Shown here: in pieces, positions 22 through 13,055 of the stretch
How the letters are laid out: the number at the start of each line of letters is the position of its first letter
Position numbering within the stretch: position 1 is the stretch's first letter
Source of the DNA: Thiorhodovibrio litoralis
GTDB taxonomy: Bacteria; Pseudomonadota; Gammaproteobacteria; Chromatiales; Chromatiaceae
Length of the DNA: 64,000 nucleotides
Assembly: GCF_033954455.1 (NCBI RefSeq)
Contig: NZ_CP121473.1
Location: forward strand, 4,636,501 to 4,700,500
Direction: 5' to 3'
The notes under the pieces: generated by a model
What the model saw: the letters and a program-made list of their open reading frames with translations, nothing else
The model's database searches: none
What the model was told of the DNA's origin: nothing
Translations under genes and position numbers: made by a program

Positions 22-30
22 GCACCCACC
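22..30. repeat. Left copy of 9-bp target-site duplication
   Basis: GCACCCACC lies directly outside the left inverted repeat and is matched exactly at 2838-2846 outside the right end. Joining the flanks here restores the presumed pre-insertion sequence upstream of trkH. Confidence 0.85.
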
Positions 31-43
31 CAGCCCTGACGCA
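31..43 (+). repeat. Left terminal inverted repeat of the IS
   Basis: CAGCCCTGACGCA is exactly inverted at 2825-2837. Similarity stops after 13 bases, so this is a short perfect TIR. Confidence 0.85.
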
Positions 44-232
44 CGACTTACCAGACCAAGGCGCTGGACCAGGAATTTCGAGAAGATTTCGCGCCGAGTG
101 GGGTGAAAACCGAACATTGGCGCCCGTGTGACGGAGCCTGCCGGAGAAAAAATCGCTGCCGCAGGACCTCTTGGCCATAGGGGGCCGCCGCCTGCGCTGT
201 GAGCAAGCGGTAGACTCCTGGCGATATTGAGC

Positions 233-1846
233 TCAGAGCAAGCGTAATCGAAACGGTCGTTGCAGGCGCTGCTCCACCTCTTGGGGATCGAGCCAAGGGC
301 CGGTGAGGGTATTGCGGATGAAGCCGATGGTGGCCTGCACCCCAAGCTGCACGAATAGCGCCGCGAGCGCCTTGGAGAAGCGTGCCAGGGTGTTGATCAG
401 ATGCGCCAGACGCATCAGCAAATGATAGCCCTTCATCGCGTTCCACTGCTTGGCGAAGGCATGTTCGTAGCCGTAGCCCTGGTGCTTTTCGACCAAAAAC
501 GCCCCTTCGATGCCCCAGCGGTAGCGCGCCCCGAGGTTGCAGCGGGTATGCACATTGAGCCGGCTGAGGGGGCGCGAGGAGAGCCAGACATGGCAGGCGT
601 GCTTGGTGATGATCTCCGCAGTCTTGGGGTCCACCACCTGCCAGTGTTCGTGGCAACTCACCACATGGACCTCAAGGAACTTCTTGCCATTGGGTCCATA
701 CTCGTAGCGAATCGCGTTGACCCACTGAAATTGCTGCTGGCGCTCGCCCCATGTCTGTTCGCAGCGATGCTCCGGGTGCTCGTGGGCCAAGCTGCGATAC
801 TCTTCCCAGACAGTTGGCAGCGAGCCATCCTTAAGCACGATCATAAAATCCCAGTGGTAGGAACGACAGCGTTCCATGATCGGGCCGTTGGCATAGAGCC
901 CATCGAGCAGCAGCATCACCGGCAGACGGGGAAAGGCGTTTTTGATGCGCTCGGCCAGACGGTGAAAGGCCTTGGTCTCGCAGTCCTGCTTGCGCTGCTC
1001 GCCCTGCTCTGGGGCAAACTCAAGGAACTCGCTCATCAACGGAATCACCATCCCGTTACGGAAGCACAGGCTCGCCTCCAGCACATAGACGTAGCACTGA
1101 TATTCCTGCTCCTCGTCGCTGTCGGGGTCCACCTTGGGACCGACACGGCGTTGGGATAAATGCTCATCCCACAGCACGGGAAAAGCGAGTTTCTGCGAGC
1201 CATCGATCCCGATGGGGTAACAGTTGTTGATCAGGTAACGCGAGAAGGCTTTGTTGCGGATCAGCCGCCGGACGAGCTCAAGATGCGCGTGGGCGATGGC
1301 GTTGACATCGATGCGCGCGAGCAGGCGAAACAGCGTATCGGCGTGAGGAAGGGCGTCGAGTTGCGGGAAGAGCAACCGCAGGTTGGCCTCGAACATCGGC
1401 CGGGTAAGCTCCCCATTGCTCGCGCGTCGTGAGCCATACTGAAACACAAACACCAGGATCCCATAGAGCATCAGGACGGTGAGTTTGTGTTTGACCTTCT
1501 TGGGGTGACGTGGATCGGGGATCTTGCCGAAGCGTTTGAGCAGGATCGGCAGCATCTGGCGCATGATCAAGATCAGTGTCGTCACCGCCTCGGTGCGCGC
1601 CGCGCGTTCCTCGGTGTTGTCGCGGAAAGGGCAGGTGCGATTGGACGGGGTAGCGCTCGGCGGCGGACTCAGTCCCGCTTCACGTTGCTGTTGGCGCAAG
1701 CGCTTGTGTTGGTCTTTTTTTTTCTCGCGTGCGCTTTGATCTCCTCGCGTCCCGGACGCCGGCTTGGCTTGCTCATCGCTCGTTTTGACCTCGCAGTTGA
1801 TGGGAGCACAACAGGGTTCGAAACTCCGCCTGCAAGGACTTGGCAA
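233..1846 (-). CDS. DDE transposase, IS4-superfamily type
   Basis: The 537-residue protein should catalyse cut-and-paste movement of the surrounding element. The acidic triad is visible: Asp215 in IDGSQ, Asp315 in LLLDGLYAN, and Glu447 in RYRWGIEGAF followed by Lys454, giving the R-x3-E-x6-K part of the IS4-type YREK signature. The first 90 residues are charged and low in complexity (KKKDQHKRLRQQQRE) and may be a DNA-binding tail, or may not be translated. The only upstream ATG, at 1846, overlaps the DUF4338 gene by 74 bp in the +1 frame, so translation is probably coupled or reinitiated. An internal Met near residue 95 is an alternative start. Roughly 200 bp of apparently noncoding sequence separates its stop from the left TIR. 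Confidence 0.85.
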   Translation of the reverse strand: MPSPCRRSFEPCCAPINCEVKTSDEQAKPASGTRGDQSAREKKKDQHKRLRQQQREAGLSPPPSATPSNRTCPFRDNTEERAARTEAVTTLILIMRQMLPILLKRFGKIPDPRHPKKVKHKLTVLMLYGILVFVFQYGSRRASNGELTRPMFEANLRLLFPQLDALPHADTLFRLLARIDVNAIAHAHLELVRRLIRNKAFSRYLINNCYPIGIDGSQKLAFPVLWDEHLSQRRVGPKVDPDSDEEQEYQCYVYVLEASLCFRNGMVIPLMSEFLEFAPEQGEQRKQDCETKAFHRLAERIKNAFPRLPVMLLLDGLYANGPIMERCRSYHWDFMIVLKDGSLPTVWEEYRSLAHEHPEHRCEQTWGERQQQFQWVNAIRYEYGPNGKKFLEVHVVSCHEHWQVVDPKTAEIITKHACHVWLSSRPLSRLNVHTRCNLGARYRWGIEGAFLVEKHQGYGYEHAFAKQWNAMKGYHLLMRLAHLINTLARFSKALAALFVQLGVQATIGFIRNTLTGPWLDPQEVEQRLQRPFRLRLL

Positions 1847-2690
1847 ACATCAGCTTGGGGCGGGTGTGGTAGGTTTTCCCCGGACGCACCAGGCCTCTGC
1901 CGCTGGTGCGTCCCAGCAGCGTCCAACCGGCGGCGCGGTAACAGCTGCCGCGAAAGCGCTCGGGGTCGACGAAGGTCTCCAGCAGCAGCGGGCGGTAGCC
2001 CCAACAGGCGTGCCAGTCCTCACCGATCTGCCGAGCCAGTTGCCCAAGCACATGACTGGCAAGATGGGGCACCTCAACGCCTGGGAAGATGAGAAAACGG
2101 CTGTTGTTGACCACCCAGGGCAGATTCGCCAGGCGCTGGCGCTCGCTCCACCCAATCCAATGGTCGCGCGCCGTCAGGGCTTTGGCGGCACCGCTCAGAA
2201 GCACGCAGCCCAGCCAATGCTCGCTGGATTCGATCAAGTAGCGTGCCCAATAGCCGAAGGGTTTTTTATAGCCCAGAGGATGACACTGCGCGAGGGCGTC
2301 ATTGAAGCGGTGCTCATCGGCTCGGTCACTGACCAGGCGCAGGTGCACCGGTGCAAGCGCCGACAGGGAACTCACCACGGATCGGCGCTGCCGGGGAGCG
2401 CGAGCGACCGGTGCGGCCCGCGCGTGCGGGCCGGGATGACTGAAGCGTTCATCCAGAGCCGGGCGGCGCAACTGCCCGGCCGCTTCCAGACGCGCGAGCA
2501 GCTTGGAGCAGGCCTGAAACTTTGGCCGGCCCGCGGGCGTGAGCCAATCGAGGTGTTCGCACAGGGTGGCAGTGAGCTCCGTGCGCGATAATCCGGGGAA
2601 ACGTTCGGCGAAGGTGCGAATGTAGGCCAGATCCTCGGGCGTGATGTCCCGACCTCCTTGCCGCCAAGTTGTTCGAGCTTCATCGTGCAT
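1773..2690 (-). CDS. DUF4338 (DruA-like) protein carried inside the IS
   Basis: The 305-residue protein has the DUF4338 hallmarks: HPLGYKKPFGYWARYLIESS, a central LTARDHWIGWS segment, and the C-terminal run ETFVDPERFRGSCYRAAGW with a following GRTSGRG. DUF4338 is the domain of DruA, a subunit of the Druantia anti-phage system, but its biochemical activity is not established. An N-terminal region (about residues 15-80) resembles a helical DNA-binding segment. The gene is upstream of, and overlaps, the transposase, and both lie between the element's TIRs. No druB-druE genes are nearby. It is therefore more likely a transposition accessory or passenger protein than a working defence subunit. The ATG at 2690 was chosen as the first in-frame start, and no strong Shine-Dalgarno sequence is seen. 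Confidence 0.82.
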   Translation of the reverse strand: MHDEARTTWRQGGRDITPEDLAYIRTFAERFPGLSRTELTATLCEHLDWLTPAGRPKFQACSKLLARLEAAGQLRRPALDERFSHPGPHARAAPVARAPRQRRSVVSSLSALAPVHLRLVSDRADEHRFNDALAQCHPLGYKKPFGYWARYLIESSEHWLGCVLLSGAAKALTARDHWIGWSERQRLANLPWVVNNSRFLIFPGVEVPHLASHVLGQLARQIGEDWHACWGYRPLLLETFVDPERFRGSCYRAAGWTLLGRTSGRGLVRPGKTYHTRPKLMFAKSLQAEFRTLLCSHQLRGQNER

Positions 2691-2824
2691 GCGCTGACAA
2701 TCTCTTCGCGGGAGTGACTCAGGATCGATTCTGGCATCACGCGCGGGCTTTGTCTAGCCGCTTTTGCGAAAACATTTTTTCCGCCCGCCCCTCAGGCCTT
2801 GCCACCTGTGGGGGCGAGTGGTTA

Positions 2825-2837
2825 TGCGTCAGGGCTG
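2825..2837 (-). repeat. Right terminal inverted repeat of the IS
   Basis: TGCGTCAGGGCTG is the exact reverse complement of 31-43. The stretch 2691-2824 between it and the DUF4338 start should hold the IS promoter. Confidence 0.85.
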
Positions 2838-2846
2838 GCACCCACC
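2838..2846. repeat. Right copy of 9-bp target-site duplication
   Basis: GCACCCACC abuts the right TIR and is identical to 22-30. It ends 32 bp before the proposed trkH start. Confidence 0.85.
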
Positions 2847-2878
2847 TCCTGAAGTCACCTTGGCCCGCCTGTCGATCT

Positions 2879-4324
2879 GTGCATTTCCTGCTGATTTCCC
2901 GCATTCTCGGACTCTTCGCGATGCTATTCAGCGCGACGCTAACGGCACCGATCCTGGTTGCCTGGATCTACCGCGAGCCGAGCATCGTCCCGTATTTGCA
3001 GCCGATGTTTGGCTCTTTCGTGCTGGGGCTGGCGCTCTACCTGGCCGGCCTGAAACGCGACTCGGGGCTGACGACGCGCGATGGCTTCCTGATCGTCACC
3101 CTGTTCTGGGTGCTGGTGAGCGTGCTCGGTGCCTGGCCTTTCATGGCCGCGCTGGTGCTGGGGCCAGTCGATGCCCTGTTTGAATCCGCTTCCGGCTTCA
3201 CCACCACCGGCGCCACGGTGATCGTCGATCTCGATCAACTGCCCCGGTCACTGCTGTTCTATCGCCAGCAGATTCAGTGGCTTGGCGGGATGGGCGTGGT
3301 GGTCCTCGGTCTCGCGGTCATTCCGATCCTGGGTATTGGTGGCATGCAGCTCTACCGCGCCGAAGCGCCCGGCCCGCTGAAGGACGAAAAGCTGACCCCG
3401 CGTCTTGCCAAAACGGCTCGCAGCCTGTGGTTGCTGTACCTGGTGCTCACCCTGAGCTGCGCGCTGTGTTACTGGCTTGCCGGCATGGATGGTTTCGACG
3501 CCATCGCCCATAGCCTGAGCACCGTCTCGACCGGGGGCTTCTCCACCCATGACGACAGCCTGGGCTACTTCGACAGCGAAGCCATTGAGATCGTCGCGGT
3601 GCTGTTCATGCTGCTCGCCGCAATCAACTTTGGCGTGCATTTCCTGGTCTGGATGCGGCGCGACCCGCGCCTGTATCTGCACGATCCCGAGGCGCGGGCC
3701 TTTCTGATCTTCGTGGCAGGGACCGTGCTCTTGGTGGGATTGATGCTCTGGGCTGACGACCACAGCGCCGGGCTGCATCTTAGTCTGCGCGGCGCGGCTT
3801 TCGAGGTGGTCTCGCTCGTGACCAGCACCGGCTATGGCATCGTCGACTACTCGGCCTGGCCGGATTTTCTGCCGATACTGCTGATCGTGATCAGCTTCGT
3901 CGGCGGTTGCGGCGGCTCGACCGCCGGCGGCATCAAGGTGGTGCGCGTGGTGCTATTGATGAAACAGGGGCTGCAGGAACTCAAGCGGCTGATCCACCCG
4001 CACGCCATCCTCAAAGTGCGGCTCGGTCATCGCGTGGTTGAAGCTGGGGTTATCCAGGCGGTCTGGGGGTATTTTGCCCTCTATATCGTTGTTTTCACCA
4101 TTATGAGCCTGCTGATGATTCATGCCGGCCTCGATCCCATCTCCGCCTTCGCTGCCGTTGCCACCAGCCTCAACAATCTCGGCCCCGGACTGGGCGAGGT
4201 GGCCTTGAACTTCGCCAGCGTCAGCGACAGCGGAAAATCCCTGGCCGTGATTGCGATGATTCTGGGACGGCTGGAAATCTTTACCATCCTGGTCATGCTG
4301 TCGCCGGAATTCTGGAGGCCCTGA
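2879..4324 (+). CDS. trkH: Trk system potassium uptake protein TrkH
   Basis: TrkH is the inner-membrane channel subunit that imports K+ together with the NAD-binding TrkA subunit. The four pore loops typical of the family are visible: GFTTTGATV, LSTVSTGGFSTHD, VTSTGYGIVD and TSLNNLGPGLGEV. The many hydrophobic segments match the usual membrane topology. I chose the GTG at 2879 because the resulting N-terminus (M/V-HFLLISRILGLF) aligns with the E. coli TrkH start and gives 481 residues, the usual length. The frame is open further upstream, but that part runs through IS sequence. The IS right end is only 41 bp upstream and no clear ribosome binding site precedes the GTG, so expression may be altered. 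trkA is not in the window. Confidence 0.92.
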   Translation: MHFLLISRILGLFAMLFSATLTAPILVAWIYREPSIVPYLQPMFGSFVLGLALYLAGLKRDSGLTTRDGFLIVTLFWVLVSVLGAWPFMAALVLGPVDALFESASGFTTTGATVIVDLDQLPRSLLFYRQQIQWLGGMGVVVLGLAVIPILGIGGMQLYRAEAPGPLKDEKLTPRLAKTARSLWLLYLVLTLSCALCYWLAGMDGFDAIAHSLSTVSTGGFSTHDDSLGYFDSEAIEIVAVLFMLLAAINFGVHFLVWMRRDPRLYLHDPEARAFLIFVAGTVLLVGLMLWADDHSAGLHLSLRGAAFEVVSLVTSTGYGIVDYSAWPDFLPILLIVISFVGGCGGSTAGGIKVVRVVLLMKQGLQELKRLIHPHAILKVRLGHRVVEAGVIQAVWGYFALYIVVFTIMSLLMIHAGLDPISAFAAVATSLNNLGPGLGEVALNFASVSDSGKSLAVIAMILGRLEIFTILVMLSPEFWRP

Positions 4325-4332
4325 GCGCGCAA

Positions 4333-6291
4333 TCAGCCCTGGCGGGGCGGTGCTTGATTGAGGATGTCGTCAACCACCGACAGCAGCCGCTCGACATTCA
4401 GGGGCTTGGTCAGATAGGCGGCAAAGCCGGCCTGCTTGCCGCGTTCACGCGCCTCGGGCATGGCCTCGGCGGTGACGGCAACCACCGGTATCTGGCGCGT
4501 CGCGGTGCGCTCGCGCAGCTGGTCTAGCACCTCATAGCCAGACATTCCCGGCAGCAGCAGATCGAGCAGGATGAGATCCGGCGGCTCACGGCGGGCGATA
4601 CGCAGGCCTTCTTCCGGCGTGGCGGCACAGCGAATGCAAAACTGCGGGCGGCGCGCGAACAGGCGCGTGACCAGCTCGGCATTGGCCTGATTATCCTCGA
4701 TGTAGAGCAACCTGCGCTGAACCGCCTGTTCATGGTCATGGCGCTGGGGCCGGGACTGGGGTTTGCCAGCCGTGGGCTCGTCCCCGCTAGCTTCGGGCTC
4801 GCACACGGGAAGCTCAAACCAGAAGGCACTGCCCACGCCCGGCTTGCTATCGACACCGATCTTCCCCTCCATCAGCCTGATGAACTCCTTGGCCACTGCG
4901 AGTCCAATGCCGGTCCCCGGGATTGCCGCGCGATCGGCATCCAGTCGCTCGAACGGGCGGAACAGGATCGCGCACTGCTCCCGCGACAGACCCGGGCCGG
5001 TATCCAGCACCTCCACCCGCACCTTGTCCTGAGCGCAGGCACAGTCGATGGTGACGTGACCATCGTCGCGGTTGAATTTGATCGCGTTGGAAATCAGGTT
5101 CAGCAGCACTTGCTTCAGGCGAATCTCATCAGCACGCACCCAAAGCTTGCCATGGGTTTCGCATTCCGTGATCAGCGCAATACCGCGGCTGCGCGCCAGG
5201 GGCATGGACAGCGAGACACTGCGCTCGATCACCTGAACCAGATCCACTGCTTTGGGGTAAAGCGCGACATGGCCGGATTCCAGCCGCGCTAAGTCCAGCA
5301 CCTCATCGATCAGCTGCAACAAATGCTGACCGGCGGCGAGGATTTCCTGCACGTTTTCGAGTTGGTCAGGAGATAGCCGGGGTTGCTCGTCGGTCTCAAG
5401 CAGCTGCGCGAAGCCGAGAATCGCATTCAGCGGGGTGCGCAGTTCGTGGCTCATGCGCGAGAGAAACTCCGACTTAGCGCGGTTGGCGCCTTCAGCCTGC
5501 TCCTTGGCGGCGAGCAACTGGCTGGTGCGCTCGCTGACGCGGTCCTCTAGCGCGTCGTTGAGATTGCGCAGCTCGCGCTCGCGTGCCGCGAGGGTGTCGA
5601 GCATCTCGTTGAAGCGACGCGCCAGGGCGGCAATCTCGTCATGGCCGCGCGCCAGGGCGCGGATTTGCGAGTCCCCCTGAGCCACGCCGCCGGCGACAGC
5701 GCACAGCGCCCACAGGCGGCGGGTCAGACGCGCACCAATCAGCCACGCCAGCAGGGAGCCGACCAGAATCGCGATCACGGAGTAGATCACGCCATCGCGA
5801 ACGACCACCGCCAGCTCCCGCTGCGTACCCTGCTGACCAATCCCGACCCGCACCCAGCCGACATGATGCTCACCAGCACGCACCGGGGCGGCGGCATCGA
5901 CCAGGGCCGCACCGCGCTGCAGAATGGCGCCCCGGACATCCGTGGGCAGATCGACCAGATAGCTGCCGCGGCGCGCGCGCTCGGTATGCGCCAGCACCTC
6001 GCCTTCGCGATCGGTCACCAGCGCGAAGCGCAGTTCCGGGTAGCGACGCTGGGCTTCGACGATCTCCTGCAGACCGGTTAGATCGCGCGCCAACAGCCAG
6101 CCGGCGGTTGAGGTGGCCAGGGTCCGCGCCAACGCCTGCGCCTGCTGAGTCTGCTGATTGAGCAGCATACGCTTCTGCCGCTCGGTGAGATCCCAGACAA
6201 ACAGACTCATCATCACCGCATGGACCAGTGCCACGCCGATGATCAGCTGCGCACGGACGTTTTTGAGAAAAGACAGTCGCGTCTTAGTCAT
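4333..6291 (-). CDS. Membrane hybrid histidine kinase with HAMP and receiver domain
   Basis: The 652-residue sensor kinase has a transmembrane helix at about 12-33, a periplasmic loop to about 165, a second helix at about 168-188, and a HAMP region to about 235. A coiled coil leads to the H-box [12 protein letters not shown] with phospho-acceptor His282. The ATPase domain shows an N-box ([12 protein letters not shown]), DTGPGLS and [12 protein letters not shown]-terminal receiver carries acceptor Asp577 in [10 protein letters not shown]. There is no HPt or output domain, so phosphate must pass to a protein elsewhere. Its start overlaps the end of the PhnD-like lipoprotein gene by 8 bp, indicating translational coupling and a shared sensory role. 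It converges with trkH, with an 8-bp gap. Confidence 0.93.
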
Positions 6292-7441
6292 CCGCGTGAC
6301 CAGGCTGGCCCATCCCCGGCTGCTTCTGTGCGGCGGACGACGGCGCGGCGGATGACGGCGCGGCGGACAAGGGCGCGGCAGCCGGAGCGGTCACCGGACT
6401 GCTGCCCCCGGCAACCGGCGCCTCGACCGGGCGCACCTCGCGCTCGAAGCGATCGACGAACCCGCGCACCAGGCCTTGGTAGTCCGTATCTGTCGCCGGA
6501 TGAAAGCGCGCGGTTTCCATCGCCGCCAGAATCGCCGCGCCGCCCGCTGCCTGGTCCAGCTCCAGCAAGCGCGCGCGCAACGCGGTGCTGAAGGCCTCAG
6601 GCAACCGACGATGCACCATCACCGAGTTATTCATCAGCGGTTCGGTCTCCCACAGCACGGTCAGTTTGGCGGCCTCCTCGGGAAAGTCGCGCTGATACAG
6701 GCGCCAGGGCGGCGGCCAGGTGGCGCCGGCACCGGTCTCGCCAAGATAGACATTCATGATGGAGGATTCCTGCGAGCCGACATAAAGGTTCTTGATGTCC
6801 CGGTTCACATCCAGGCCCTGCTGGTGCAGGAAATACTGCGGCATGATGCAGGCAGCCAAGGCCGTCGGCGAGGGATAGCTGACCTTGTGCCCGCGCAGAT
6901 CAGCCACCTGCGCAATGCCGGAATCCACCCGCGCCAAAATCAGCCCTTTGAAGTCTTCCGCGTCCCCGGCCATGGCGATGACCCGATAGCCCGAGTCCAT
7001 CGCGATCAGCGTCTGCCATGGGTTCGGCAGCAGAATGTCCGGTGTCTGGGCGCGAATTTTCTTCTCATACGCCTGATAGTCGCGCGACGCCTCAAGCACG
7101 ATGCGCCCGTCCTCCAGCTGCGCGTTCAGATAGTCGACCAAGGGCTGGTAGGCGTCGATCAGCTTGCGCGGGTTGTGCAATGGGTGAATGGCCAGGCGAT
7201 AAACCGGCATGCCGTGCGCTGGCTCGGCGCGATATTCAAGCTCCGCGGGCGCATCGGATTCGCCACCGCAGGCCGCGAGCAGCAGCGCCACAAGGCACCA
7301 CAGCGCCAGGCGCCAGAAGCGAGCCACAGGCGGCGGAAAGGCATCCCGATGGACGTTCAGGCAAGAACTCAGGGGAGAGTAAAGCGGGGAGTCCGGCCGA
7401 ACATGGGGCGCGGGCGGAACGCACGGGCGCAGGCGGGTCAT
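6284..7441 (-). CDS. PhnD-like periplasmic binding lipoprotein (sensor partner)
   Basis: The protein belongs to the phosphate/phosphonate (PhnD/SsuA/transferrin-like) solute-binding superfamily. Visible features are [20 protein letters not shown], a central [13 protein letters not shown] and the later [13 protein letters not shown] lipobox LLAAC places the acylated cysteine at residue 58 from the ATG at 7441. That leader is long, and a GTG at 7325-7327 would give a normal 20-residue signal, so the start is uncertain. The C-terminus is an Ala/Ser/Pro-rich tail (about 45 residues). No ABC permease or ATPase is adjacent. The downstream hybrid kinase overlaps it by 8 bp, so I infer that the protein binds a ligand and presents it to the kinase rather than feeding a transporter. 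The ligand is unknown. Confidence 0.85.
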
Positions 7442-7803
7442 AAGCGGATCACAGGTGCGGACATCTCACCTAAAGGTAGCCCAAGCTGACACTCCCTGCC
7501 GAACAAAGGCGCGAACGATCGCAAACATTCGTACCAGATCGCGCAATCAGACCTGTTGCACCGCCATACCCACACAAAAGTTGCGAATATGTGATAGCAC
7601 TCGCAGCCCGTTCGCTTGCACTCGAGTATTCTTTCATTACCGGGCCGCCCAGGATGACGGTCTTGTTACAGTGATGTAGGCACACCGCCCGGTAACCCGA
7701 AATATCTGCCAGCTCTGCCCCACCAACGAGACTTGTCTGTGCCACAGCAATCTCCCAAGAGCCAGCAGGTGACTGACTTTTTGGTTCTTGGGAGTACAGG
7801 ACG
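7442..7803. other. Intergenic region, 362 bp
   Basis: This region separates the divergent lipoprotein gene and the small ORF at 7804, so it must hold promoters for both. No convincing -35/-10 pair or known operator stands out. A strong inverted repeat at 7752-7794 is listed separately. Confidence 0.5.
7752..7794 (+). promoter_or_regulatory. Hairpin in the leader of the 97-residue ORF
   Basis: CTCCCAAGAGCCA (7752-7764) pairs with TGGTTCTTGGGAG (7782-7794) with one G-U or mismatch position and a 17-base loop. The 3' arm ends in GGGAG, just before the putative ribosome binding site (CAGG at 7797-7800) and the ATG at 7804. The hairpin could control translation or act as a terminator-like structure. 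No ligand class is recognisable. Confidence 0.5.
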
Positions 7804-8097
7804 ATGCGCAGATGGCTGATCAGACAGGACCGCCCCAACGGTGGCGTTCTGAGCTTTGCAGGAGATCCCGCGTTCGAGGCGCACTGGATGCTGAGCGAGG
7901 ACCCACCCACCGAGAATGCGCCGCAACCGGGCCCCGACGAGCGCTACTGGTTTCGCACCGGCGATGACGATGATGATCTGATCGTGCAGTTCTTCAACCT
8001 GCACTGGGAGGACACCCCGCCCAAGCCAGCGCTTGCGCGCCGGCTCATGGCCAAAGCGGTCATCGAAATCAACCAGATGATTGGCGAGCGGTTTTAG
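7804..8097 (+). CDS. Small hypothetical acidic protein
   Basis: This 97-residue ORF has no family I recognise. It is acidic (PGPDERYWFRTGDDDDDLIV) and has a short amphipathic C-terminal helix (RRLMAKAVIEINQMIGERF). There is no signal peptide or membrane helix, so it is probably cytosolic. It is taken as real because its codon use resembles its neighbours, a plausible ribosome binding site (ACAGG) lies 4 bp upstream of the ATG, and no better frame overlaps it. It stands alone, divergent from the lipoprotein operon and convergent with the AraC regulator. Confidence 0.6.
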   Translation: MRRWLIRQDRPNGGVLSFAGDPAFEAHWMLSEDPPTENAPQPGPDERYWFRTGDDDDDLIVQFFNLHWEDTPPKPALARRLMAKAVIEINQMIGERF

Positions 8098-8146
8098 AAC
8101 ACAATACCCGTCTAAAACCAAAGGCTGGTCGGACCGGGACAGAGAA

Positions 8147-9268
8147 TCACGCAGAGGCACCAACCTGAGACGGGCCGGGAACAAACCGGCCTGCCTCCGC
8201 GCCACTTGAGTAAATCAGCGGGGCGGCCGCGGCCGCCCGCGCCCGTCGCGCCAGTGTCTGCGACGGCTTTTCGCCAAACAGCCTTTTGTACTCCTGCGAG
8301 AAACGGCTCAGATGGCGGAACCCCTGCGCGAATGCCACATCGGCCACCCGGGTCGATCCGGGCGCAGCTGCCGCCAGCTCGCGCCTGGCCTGGTGCAGCC
8401 GGTACACCCGCACGAAGCGCAGCGGGCTTAAGCCGAAGCGTTCCTCGAAGGCGTATTCCAGCGTGCGCTGCTTGGCCCCAGCCGCCTCACACAGCTCACT
8501 GACGCTCGGCATCAAGGAACTGCCCTCGCTGAGATACTCAAGCGCCTGAGTGACCACCCGATATCTCGATGCGCCCGCACGCGGCGGCGGCAGGCGCTTG
8601 CGTGCAGTCTTGCACAGATCAAGCAACCGTTCCGGCAGCTCCTCCTCAAGCAACGCGCTCAGGCGCGCGGCCTTCTCCGGATTGAGACGCGCCTTTCTGA
8701 CGATTTGCCGCGCGCCCGCCCCAGCATTCTGGCGCCCCCGGTCACGCGGTCCAGCCGTGACCAAAACGCGATTCAGCCAAGCGGCAAAGTCGGCAAATTC
8801 TTCCGGCCCTAACAACAATCCGCCGCGCCGCACCGCAGCATCGCTCAAGTGCGCGGCATCCTCGCCCAAACGACGCTGCAGAAATTCCTGGTCAAGCAAG
8901 ATGATGAAATGGGCATATTCGGCGTCAACGATGGCATCGAGTGCCCCTGGCTCACTGATGCGAATCGCCGTTGGCTCAGGTCCGTGCCCGAAAAAGCGGG
9001 TCTCTTCGCCAAGCTGCAGGGGCACCACCACAACCAGCTTGCCGGGCGGTGACATCCCTCTCAAGCGGGTGGTCACCGAGAACTGCTCGCGATAGAGCAC
9101 TACTGATTGGGTTGCCAGATAATGCTTGCGATTGAAGAAGCTCTGCTCCCCCATAGGTTCGGACATCACCTCCCAGGGTCGCGATGTGGCCTCAAAGACG
9201 ATGGGATCATCGGTCTCGATATAGCCACACGCCAAGCCAAAATCCTTTGCTGATGTGTCGTTTTGCAT
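8147..9268 (-). CDS. AraC-family transcriptional regulator
   Basis: The 373-residue regulator has a C-terminal double helix-turn-helix of AraC type (about residues 245-345). Its hallmarks are VSELCEAAGAKQRTLEYAF, GLSPLRFVRVYRLHQARREL and DVAFAQGFRHLSRFSQEYKR. The N-terminal 200 residues look like the cupin-like sensing domain of AraC-binding-like proteins (VVVPLQLGEETRFFG). A very strong Shine-Dalgarno (GGAGGAGGT) precedes the ATG at 9268. It is followed by an Ala/Arg-rich C-terminal tail. The target genes are not evident. Both the divergent small ORF and the large kinase upstream on the same strand are candidates. Confidence 0.92.
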   Translation of the reverse strand: MQNDTSAKDFGLACGYIETDDPIVFEATSRPWEVMSEPMGEQSFFNRKHYLATQSVVLYREQFSVTTRLRGMSPPGKLVVVVPLQLGEETRFFGHGPEPTAIRISEPGALDAIVDAEYAHFIILLDQEFLQRRLGEDAAHLSDAAVRRGGLLLGPEEFADFAAWLNRVLVTAGPRDRGRQNAGAGARQIVRKARLNPEKAARLSALLEEELPERLLDLCKTARKRLPPPRAGASRYRVVTQALEYLSEGSSLMPSVSELCEAAGAKQRTLEYAFEERFGLSPLRFVRVYRLHQARRELAAAAPGSTRVADVAFAQGFRHLSRFSQEYKRLFGEKPSQTLARRARAAAAAPLIYSSGAEAGRFVPGPSQVGASA

Positions 9269-9605
9269 CGCGCTACCTCCTCCCGCTGATCCTACAGGCC
9301 CACTTGGCCTCTGTTTCGTTCATGGATATTGCCGGTGCGGGCGACATCAAATCGCATTCGCCACCAAGAAACACACAGAAAAGCTACAAACGAGCAATCT
9401 TGTACCACAACTCTGTGCGCTGGAGCGCGTTTTGATCAGGGATTTGCGAATAAGTTCACAAAATCCCCGAAGACATTCACACGCAAGTCGCCCCCCCGGC
9501 TCCTCCGCAGGTAGGGCGGATTCCAAGACTTCACGTGCTTGCTTCTCAAGCCTCTAACGCACATGCGCTTGCTTGAAGACGACAGCCAATTAAGCGGGAT
9601 GGCCG
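9269..9605. other. Intergenic region, 337 bp
   Basis: The region lies between the stop of the large hybrid kinase and the start of the AraC gene, both on the minus strand. It should contain the araC-type gene's own promoter. I see no strong hairpin, repeat or coding frame. Short ORFs here have no recognisable protein character. Confidence 0.5.

Positions 9606-13055
<3,450 letters not shown>

Follow-up and report, generated by a model that had tools for sequence, protein, structure and literature searches.

Positions 31–2837 of the window (the whole 64,000-nucleotide stretch of the Thiorhodovibrio litoralis genome analysed here, NZ_CP121473.1, 4,636,501–4,700,500) are a complete 2807-bp insertion sequence (IS), coded on the minus strand, in which a gene for a DUF4338 protein (Pfam PF14236, DruA) precedes one for a DDE transposase. 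It is very probable that DUF4338 forms an integral accessory part of several transposition systems; probably it is an enzyme resembling Mom of phage Mu. We propose tentatively, with confidence falling a little short of even, that a Mom-like enzyme of the GNAT fold is a standing accessory of transposition, encoded by the first gene of a DDE-type IS; we infer that DUF4338 is catalytic, that its substrate is DNA and the base modified adenine, that it has a role in transposition, and that the transposase frame is reached by frameshifting. No description of DUF4338 in insertion sequences, or of its kinship to Mom, was found among open-access titles and abstracts; subscription papers, preprints and ISfinder lay outside that search.

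The element has the features of a DDE-type IS: terminal inverted repeats (TIRs) with a target-site duplication (TSD), a DDE transposase gene and more than one copy at different sites. The 13-bp TIRs and 9-bp TSD described in an initial annotation of this DNA, made from the letters alone, are both exact (Table 1), and the second copy with matching ends that it sought exists. The 5.47-Mb genome contains three full-length, gap-free 2807-bp copies (identity 100, 99.0 and 98.9%), of which two, in the window (GCACCCACC) and at locus L035 (AAAAGCAGA), are flanked by perfect 9-bp duplications; no target duplication was present at the ends of the third, L036. Related elements occur in two other Chromatiaceae, Halochromatium (L050; 2807 bp, TIR 16/16, 9-bp TSD) and Lamprobacter (L051; 2812 bp, TIR present, TSD not found), and a same-genus genome has both a full-length copy at 93.6% (L264, TSD not found) and a second match at 93.2% that begins at position 84 (L265). 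When the joined 200+200 nt flanks of two copies were sought in two same-genus genomes, they gave only partial matches, none of them a clean empty site.

Association of DUF4338 with transposases extends far beyond this element. A scan of 84,980 species genomes gave 215 relatives, and the 80 kept for analysis span several phyla of bacteria as well as two groups of archaea. Partners identified by Pfam in representatives were IS66, Tn5, IS4-like (DDE_Tnp_1 plus an Nterm_IS4 match below cut-off), DDE_5, DDE_Tnp_1 and UPF0236. Five loci (L087, L115, L110, L039 and L137) encode Pfam-confirmed fusions of DUF4338 and transposase in a single polypeptide, with a further four (L079, L044, L135 and L189) fusion-like by local hidden Markov models (HMMs) only. 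DUF4338 is paired or fused with at least six transposase groups. The initial annotation had read DUF4338 as mobile cargo; its companionship with a transposase proves recurrent, as pairing and as fusion, but the gene is not incidental to the element.

This association was absent from control loci. A transposase lay within 1.5 kb of 21/30 DUF4338 loci and of 0/30 ordinary GNAT (PF13302) loci (Fisher p 3.6e-9), a positive rate that is optimistic, since training of the local transposase HMMs used the neighbours of related loci, in part the very same genes. The loci were sampled from 20 genomes selected via an IS-type query (30 from 123 PF14236 matches, 30 from 99 PF13302 matches), and the two sets differ by one genome, that of L060 in the DUF4338 set and the window's own in the GNAT set. 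Pfam searches of greedily chosen neighbour open reading frames (ORFs; n=56) returned 13 IS66, 3 DDE_Tnp_1, 2 DDE_Tnp_1_assoc and 1 DDE_5, and no transposase family among the 25 of 108 families listed for 81 control ORFs, counts weakened by the greedy choice having bypassed the true GNAT at some control loci. The search for paired loci suggested by the initial annotation has uncovered repeated pairing.

A less biased draw (6/143 genomes positive within the class and 17/398 within the phylum, the T. litoralis genome in both) gave a more varied picture. Of 30 loci outside the T. litoralis genome, 24 were scanned, the excluded ones being five second matches of a gene or neighbour and L152. A local transposase match was found in 7/24 (that of L136 weak), and L133 has a UPF0236 partner by Pfam; 4/24 were of defence type (L043, L130, L131 and L132) and the rest were large fusions, fragments or unknown. 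The family PF14236 is therefore a mixture of an IS branch and a defence branch.

Element boundaries agree with the pairing. TIR scores exceeded the 99% level of mismatched flanks in 20/39 paired, 2/3 fused and 2/22 solo units (16/80 loci were excluded for short flanks, and some units are copies of one element), with 4–10-bp duplications in seven of those 20 paired units and in both fused ones. As candidate mobile elements in their own right, solo DUF4338 genes scored above background in 2/22 cases, one of which (L072) has an IS66 frame beside it. Relatives of the window DUF4338 were found in 0 records of a phage collection and in 2 of 72,556 plasmid records, both collections leaning to well-studied hosts. 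On a Thiodictyon plasmid, the RefSeq coding sequence over an ISAs1-type DUF4338 match is annotated 'ISAs1 family transposase'.

The T. litoralis genome itself is rich in such elements, with 31 PF14236 matches at 30 loci, 28 of which are elements with Tn5-like, ISAs1-like or IS66 transposases. Twenty equal-scoring copies of a 2361-bp element have DUF4338 overlapping a Tn5-like transposase by ATGA; 18 are identical over 1672 bp, transposase start included, and the other two form a nested pair. Perfect 9-bp duplications flank 5/5 Tn5-type copies checked, among them L033, a diverged copy, and the outer member of the nested pair, read from two rows. Together with L033, three window-type copies, three ISAs1-type copies and an IS66 element in which DUF4338 follows the transposase (L034) complete the 28. 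Of the two loci outside these types, L041 is a partial copy and L042 encodes a P-loop fusion of 1230 aa.

Several observations on these and other DUF4338-rich genomes may be recorded here. In the nested pair (L032, about 618–5350) one Tn5-like DUF4338 element has inserted into a second copy, duplicating the 9 bp GTATAGTCC. L042, about 240 kb in the T. litoralis genome, is a frame at 3449–7141(+) with a split DUF4338 region, a P-loop ATPase region and two large genes adjoining; large frames of a similar kind occur in L047, L140 and L147, and L042 is reminiscent of the DndF–GNAT fusions described in PMC10853773. One same-genus genome (G553) holds about ten equal-scoring copies of the ISAs1-type element and another (G552) only Tn5-type elements, three in number; the DUF4338 elements that have spread differ even between close relatives. 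Matches are most numerous per genome at 36 in Albidovulum bin36 (G545) and 23 in Verrucomicrobiales H5_VER1 (G541), where several groups of equal-scoring copies suggest recent bursts of different elements.

The kinship of DUF4338 to Mom is visible in profile–profile and fold comparison, and weakly in Pfam. The window protein (1773–2690, minus strand) matches PF14236 at 99.5 bits (cut-off 27). Its AlphaFold model, built with 57 sequences (mean predicted local distance difference test score 88.1), has phage Mu Mom (8bv8, E 1.1e-5) as its top Foldseek match in the PDB, and among the viral fold matches are one protein that bears the name Mom and another, LP65 orf128, that is Mom-like according to its record. 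By hhalign, the 57 DUF4338s matched nine phage Moms with 96.5% probability (E 7.3e-10) and 13 ordinary PF13302 GNATs with 1.1% (E 0.049); those same GNATs matched Mom with 2.9% (E 0.015). A sequence-to-profile search of the PDB with the 57 sequences gave no Mom or GNAT match (best E 0.18). In Pfam terms window-type copies score 10.7–11.6 bits against the Mom model, and 5/6 sub-threshold Mom matches in the T. litoralis genome are DUF4338 loci. DUF4338 has already been called a GNAT domain, in DndF fusions, in a paper whose main text contains neither the word Mom nor the word Druantia (PMC10853773). Mu Mom is recorded as modifying adenine and shielding phage DNA (Mu record note; PMC7824862).

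Three residues of DUF4338 that pair with Mom are kept in 56 or 57 of the 57 sequences (Table 1), and Asp or Glu occupies position 242, paired with Mom Asp139, in 52/57. His48, Asp139 and Tyr149 of Mom are putative catalytic residues. By its title, 8bv8 is the inactive mutant S124A, and its chain has Ala at residue 114 of GenBank Mom, the partner of Ser212. A pairing of Arg198 with Mom Arg101 made by eye was not counted, as hhalign pairs Arg198 elsewhere. The Mom match starts at about residue 115; the N-terminal domain that precedes it is a family-wide feature, in which 36/36 sequences have W49 and G54, and is suspected to bind DNA. A helix-turn-helix is not claimed for this domain, because its fold search gave nothing at E <= 0.001.

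The two genes appear to be coupled in translation. The transposase frame (233–1846, minus strand) matches Pfam DDE_Tnp_1_assoc (PF13808) at 47.9 bits (cut-off 32.3) and DDE_Tnp_1 (PF01609) at 22.3 bits, just below its cut-off of 23, and no NCBIfam model scored above cut-off (IS1380 20.7 against 180). The 74-bp overlap of frames given in the initial annotation rests on TTG at 1846 being taken as the start codon. At 8/8 junctions (the window, L035, L036, L050, L051, L056, L057 and L060), ATGA at the DUF4338 stop opens a small frame, and this frame enters a poly-A tract, absent in L060, of nine residues in the window, L035, L036 and L264 and of eight in L050, L051, L056 and L057. In the window, L035, L036, L056 and L057, the conserved transposase frame ahead of its first internal Met is the -1 frame beyond the tract, and would appear to be entered by programmed frameshifting or transcript slippage. 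In the separate ISAs1-type element of the same genome (L039), PF14236 and PF13808 share one ORF, and the remaining transposase is in the -1 frame after a CAAAAAAAG site. These ISAs1-type copies were not taken as degenerate, because a related copy in a same-genus genome (L258) shares the A7G site. Among 45 adjacent DUF4338–partner pairs, an exact 4-bp overlap (ATGA) was seen in 11, from six distinct elements; in these counts start codons were set mechanically and one pair, L100, is without a Pfam match.

Table 1. Features of the insertion sequence, in window coordinates.
Feature	Position	Strand	Remarks
Left target-site duplication GCACCCACC	22–30		exact
Whole IS	31–2837	-	three full-length genome copies, plus related L050, L051 and L264
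Left terminal inverted repeat CAGCCCTGACGCA	31–43		13/13 with right repeat
DDE transposase open frame (orfB)	233–1846	-	probably entered at A9, about 233–1723
orfA, 35 aa, ATG on DUF4338 stop (ATGA)	1669–1776	-	likely true transposase N-terminus
A9 run with in-frame A_AAA_AAG	1715–1723	-	putative -1 frameshift or transcript slippage site
DUF4338/PF14236 protein, 305 aa	1773–2690	-	N-terminal helical domain plus Mom-like GNAT domain
Pfam DruA match, residues 112–267	1890–2357	-	inside GNAT-fold domain
Tyr251, invariant 57/57	1938–1940	-	pairs with Mom Tyr149 (hhalign)
Ser212, 56/57 (Thr once)	2055–2057	-	pairs with the Mom serine replaced by Ala in 8bv8 (hhalign)
His137, invariant 57/57	2280–2282	-	pairs with Mom His48 (hhalign)
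N-terminal domain, residues 1–95	2406–2690	-	short strands, then three helices
Right terminal inverted repeat TGCGTCAGGGCTG	2825–2837		13/13
Right target-site duplication GCACCCACC	2838–2846		exact, 9 bp

The DUF4338 gene is conserved as a protein, and its partners change. Ratios of non-synonymous to synonymous substitution rates (dN/dS) were 0.27 between the window and L264, 0.236 between the window and L050, 0.135 between L050 and L051, and 0.182 between the Tn5-like element (element A) and L033, placing DUF4338 under purifying selection as judged from these coding-sequence comparisons; the ratio of 1.7 for the window and L036 rests on almost no changes. On a quick tree of 104 rows, partner labels require 23 changes (minimum possible 8, shuffled mean 53.1), and read from this tree partners are clustered, with repeated exchange. 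The rows came from 134 candidate loci, after removal of 22 identical to kept rows; omitted were L042, L164, L047, L140, L141 and L147, not caught by the profile, and L093 and L194, which are short.

The same tree bears on the relation to Druantia, for which the initial annotation had proposed it. A branch of about 5.7 changes/site (drawn as 3.82 + 1.9; SH-aLRT 100) divides all 101 non-defence rows of this unrooted tree from three DruAs, one of Druantia I and the others with HerA-like genes. The label 'DruA-like' given to the window protein was misleading, as it scores 12.8 bits (E 0.011) on PADLOC DruA1, against 267.8–700.8 bits for four defence-type DruAs. These four matched the IS-type DUF4338 profile with 97.0% probability (E 8e-11) and the Mom profile with 0.7%, a weak negative from four sequences, and have Trp at the Mom-like (HY) His position and Gly at that of Ser212. 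One of the loci, L163, is genuine Druantia I, with DruA at 700.8 bits and DruE at 2035 bits; DruA is listed as of unknown function in PMC7251935. In L162, L164 and L165 DUF4338 stands near HerA-like genes, and in L043 and L165 the intervening gene has a NurA domain. That the window gene travels in an IS without Druantia partners holds good: the best DruE match in the genome, at 37.2 bits, is a helicase in a 919-aa frame, and the DruE model also gives matches in 12/14 control genomes.

The run of a DruA-type gene, a gene of about 400 aa and one for a HerA-like ATPase occupies 6413–10571(-) in L162, 6625–10887(-) in L164 and 3284–7397(+) in L165, in genomes of different families. The DruA–NurA–HerA arrangement looks like a defence system distinct from Druantia.

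Taken together, these results are consistent with a mechanism in which translation would pass from DUF4338 to the transposase via the overlapping ATGA and then by a frameshift or slippage at the poly-A run, the two being one polypeptide in related elements. DUF4338 would take an acyl-CoA-type donor and modify bases in the DNA of its element, by analogy with Mom adenine, probably near the element ends and in cis. Such a mark could control when the transposase acts, as Dam methylation does for IS10 and IS50, might shield excised DNA from host nucleases, or could do both.

A number of observations weigh against this proposal. The GNATs SpeG (3.5e-5) and AAC(6') stand just behind Mom in the Foldseek ranking, TM-scores are modest, and the second Mom chain of 8bv8 ranks tenth. 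No scanned DUF4338 passed the Pfam Mom model (cut-off 27.1; best 20.7 and 21.6 bits), and the fold search with the N-terminal domain gave no significant match. The Mom-like profile is kept in solo-type genes, with seven DUF4338s that lack a recognised partner matching Mom at 96.0% (E 4e-9), so that a transposase next to the gene may be dispensable for some members. At the junction, the poly-A of L050 and L051 would require +1 or -2 rather than -1, the tract is absent in L060, and a search for a stimulatory RNA structure downstream of A9 found none (z -0.05). Gene order varies, DUF4338 being upstream of its partner in 26/45 adjacent pairs and downstream in 19/45. Furthermore, 20/80 related loci had no match to the local transposase models, among them L086, which has a UPF0236 partner by Pfam. 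Finally, on a second Thiodictyon plasmid, with an incomplete gene table, the genes annotated behind a relative of the Tn5-type DUF4338 are those of an integrase and of an IS91 transposase, not of a Tn5-like one.

Some of the loci without, or with doubtful, partners are worth describing. Frames of about 500 aa abut DUF4338 in L100 (1411–2976(+), no Pfam match) and L196 (2084–3520(+), weak unrelated Pfam match), each a candidate unrecognised transposase. L062, L063, L065, L066, L070, L078 and L172 form a mostly deltaproteobacterial clade with Mom-like residues kept and no recognised adjacent transposase, which has perhaps been domesticated. Within 260 bp upstream of 4971 in L065, three imperfect repeats AAAAA..CTGGACATTC precede the solo DUF4338 gene, and a similar TTCTGGACATT lies upstream of the ISAs1-type DUF4338 in L039; repeats of this type are a possible binding site of the protein.

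Among the alternatives to a base-modifying enzyme, a non-catalytic accessory that binds DNA or acts as a scaffold, aiding end finding, end pairing or target choice, seems to us unlikely. The fusions and coupled frames would tie such a protein to the transposase equally, and the family-wide N-terminal domain (W49, G54) outside the Mom-matching part would suit it; yet a scaffold has no obvious need of His137, Ser212 and Tyr251, and the N-terminal domain is without a significant fold match of any kind. Acylation of a protein instead of DNA, with the transposase or a host factor as substrate and transposition regulated in this way, is decidedly improbable. Coupling with the transposase frame and the many protein and small-molecule acetyltransferases among the fold matches speak for it, but profile comparison links DUF4338 to Mom and not to the 13 ordinary PF13302 GNATs, and one type of enzyme would have to suit at least six transposase groups.

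We give a similarly low probability to DUF4338 being a passenger, an anti-restriction or defence gene, on the model of Mu Mom or of Druantia, that serves the host or the element in transfer and has no part in transposition. Mu Mom does protect phage DNA from restriction (PMC6483171), and the family is distantly akin to Druantia-type DruA. A passenger would hardly be fused in frame to a transposase or paired repeatedly with different ones, however; there is no DruE in the genome, and relatives are scarce in the phage and plasmid collections, both leaning to well-studied hosts, although it is there that anti-restriction would pay most. Chance or faulty annotation, with DUF4338 genes lying near transposases through shared repeat-rich regions, is scarcely credible. 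The many fragmented draft genomes and the 20/80 loci without a recognised partner might suggest it, but it is contradicted by the 0/30 control loci, the TIRs outside both genes, the ATGA overlap in 11/45 pairs from six elements, and the fusions.

A wider form of the base-modifying hypothesis, that many unrelated IS families of bacteria and archaea carry a Mom-type base modifier, in many cases as a fusion with the transposase, which marks the DNA of the element and thereby gates its transposition, and that DruA is a later descendant of this enzyme which has lost the Mom-like active site, is doubtful. Were base modification by DUF4338 true, transposons would carry a dedicated enzyme for it, amounting to element-encoded epigenetic control, the chemistry of Mom would reach beyond phages to ISs of many phyla, and there would be a direct route to DUF4338 function. 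The analysis offers a testable ancestry for DruA, and many transposon genes matched by the Pfam entry 'Druantia protein DruA' should not be read as defence genes.

Beyond the DUF4338 question, an ORF at 2669–4324(+) of the window, TrkH-like by eye, begins inside the IS, which stands directly upstream of this gene and may affect its expression.

Among known systems, phage Mu Mom (PF25680; 8bv8) shares with DUF4338 the GNAT fold, a profile match, residence in a transposing element and the residues His48, Ser114 (GenBank numbering), Asp139 and Tyr149, equivalent to His137, Ser212, Asp/Glu242 and Tyr251; it differs in lacking the N-terminal helical domain and in sitting in a phage, and its Pfam model stays below cut-off on DUF4338. 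Druantia type I DruA (PADLOC DruA1) shares PF14236 and the 97% profile similarity (E 8e-11), but has Trp and Gly for the IS-type His and Ser, is set apart by a very long branch and functions together with further Dru genes. Ordinary ISAs1-like elements are not known to carry genes besides that of the transposase. They have the DDE_Tnp_1_assoc/DDE_Tnp_1 domains in common with the window element, whose transposase probably forms a distinct group, and the ISAs1-type element of the same genome also has DUF4338. In ISs of the IS1 and IS3 type, a small upstream ORF leads through an A-rich slippery site and programmed frameshift into the downstream catalytic frame; the window IS has the same small ORF, A-rich site and downstream frame, but here the putative frameshift unit is preceded by, or in relatives fused to, DUF4338. 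Transposition of IS10 and IS50 (IS4 group) is under Dam methylation control, making them DDE ISs responsive to adenine modification, as is proposed here, and Pfam domains of the IS50/Tn5 transposase recur in the Tn5-like DUF4338 elements; the modifying enzyme of IS10 and IS50 is the host's, whereas a DUF4338 element would bring its own.

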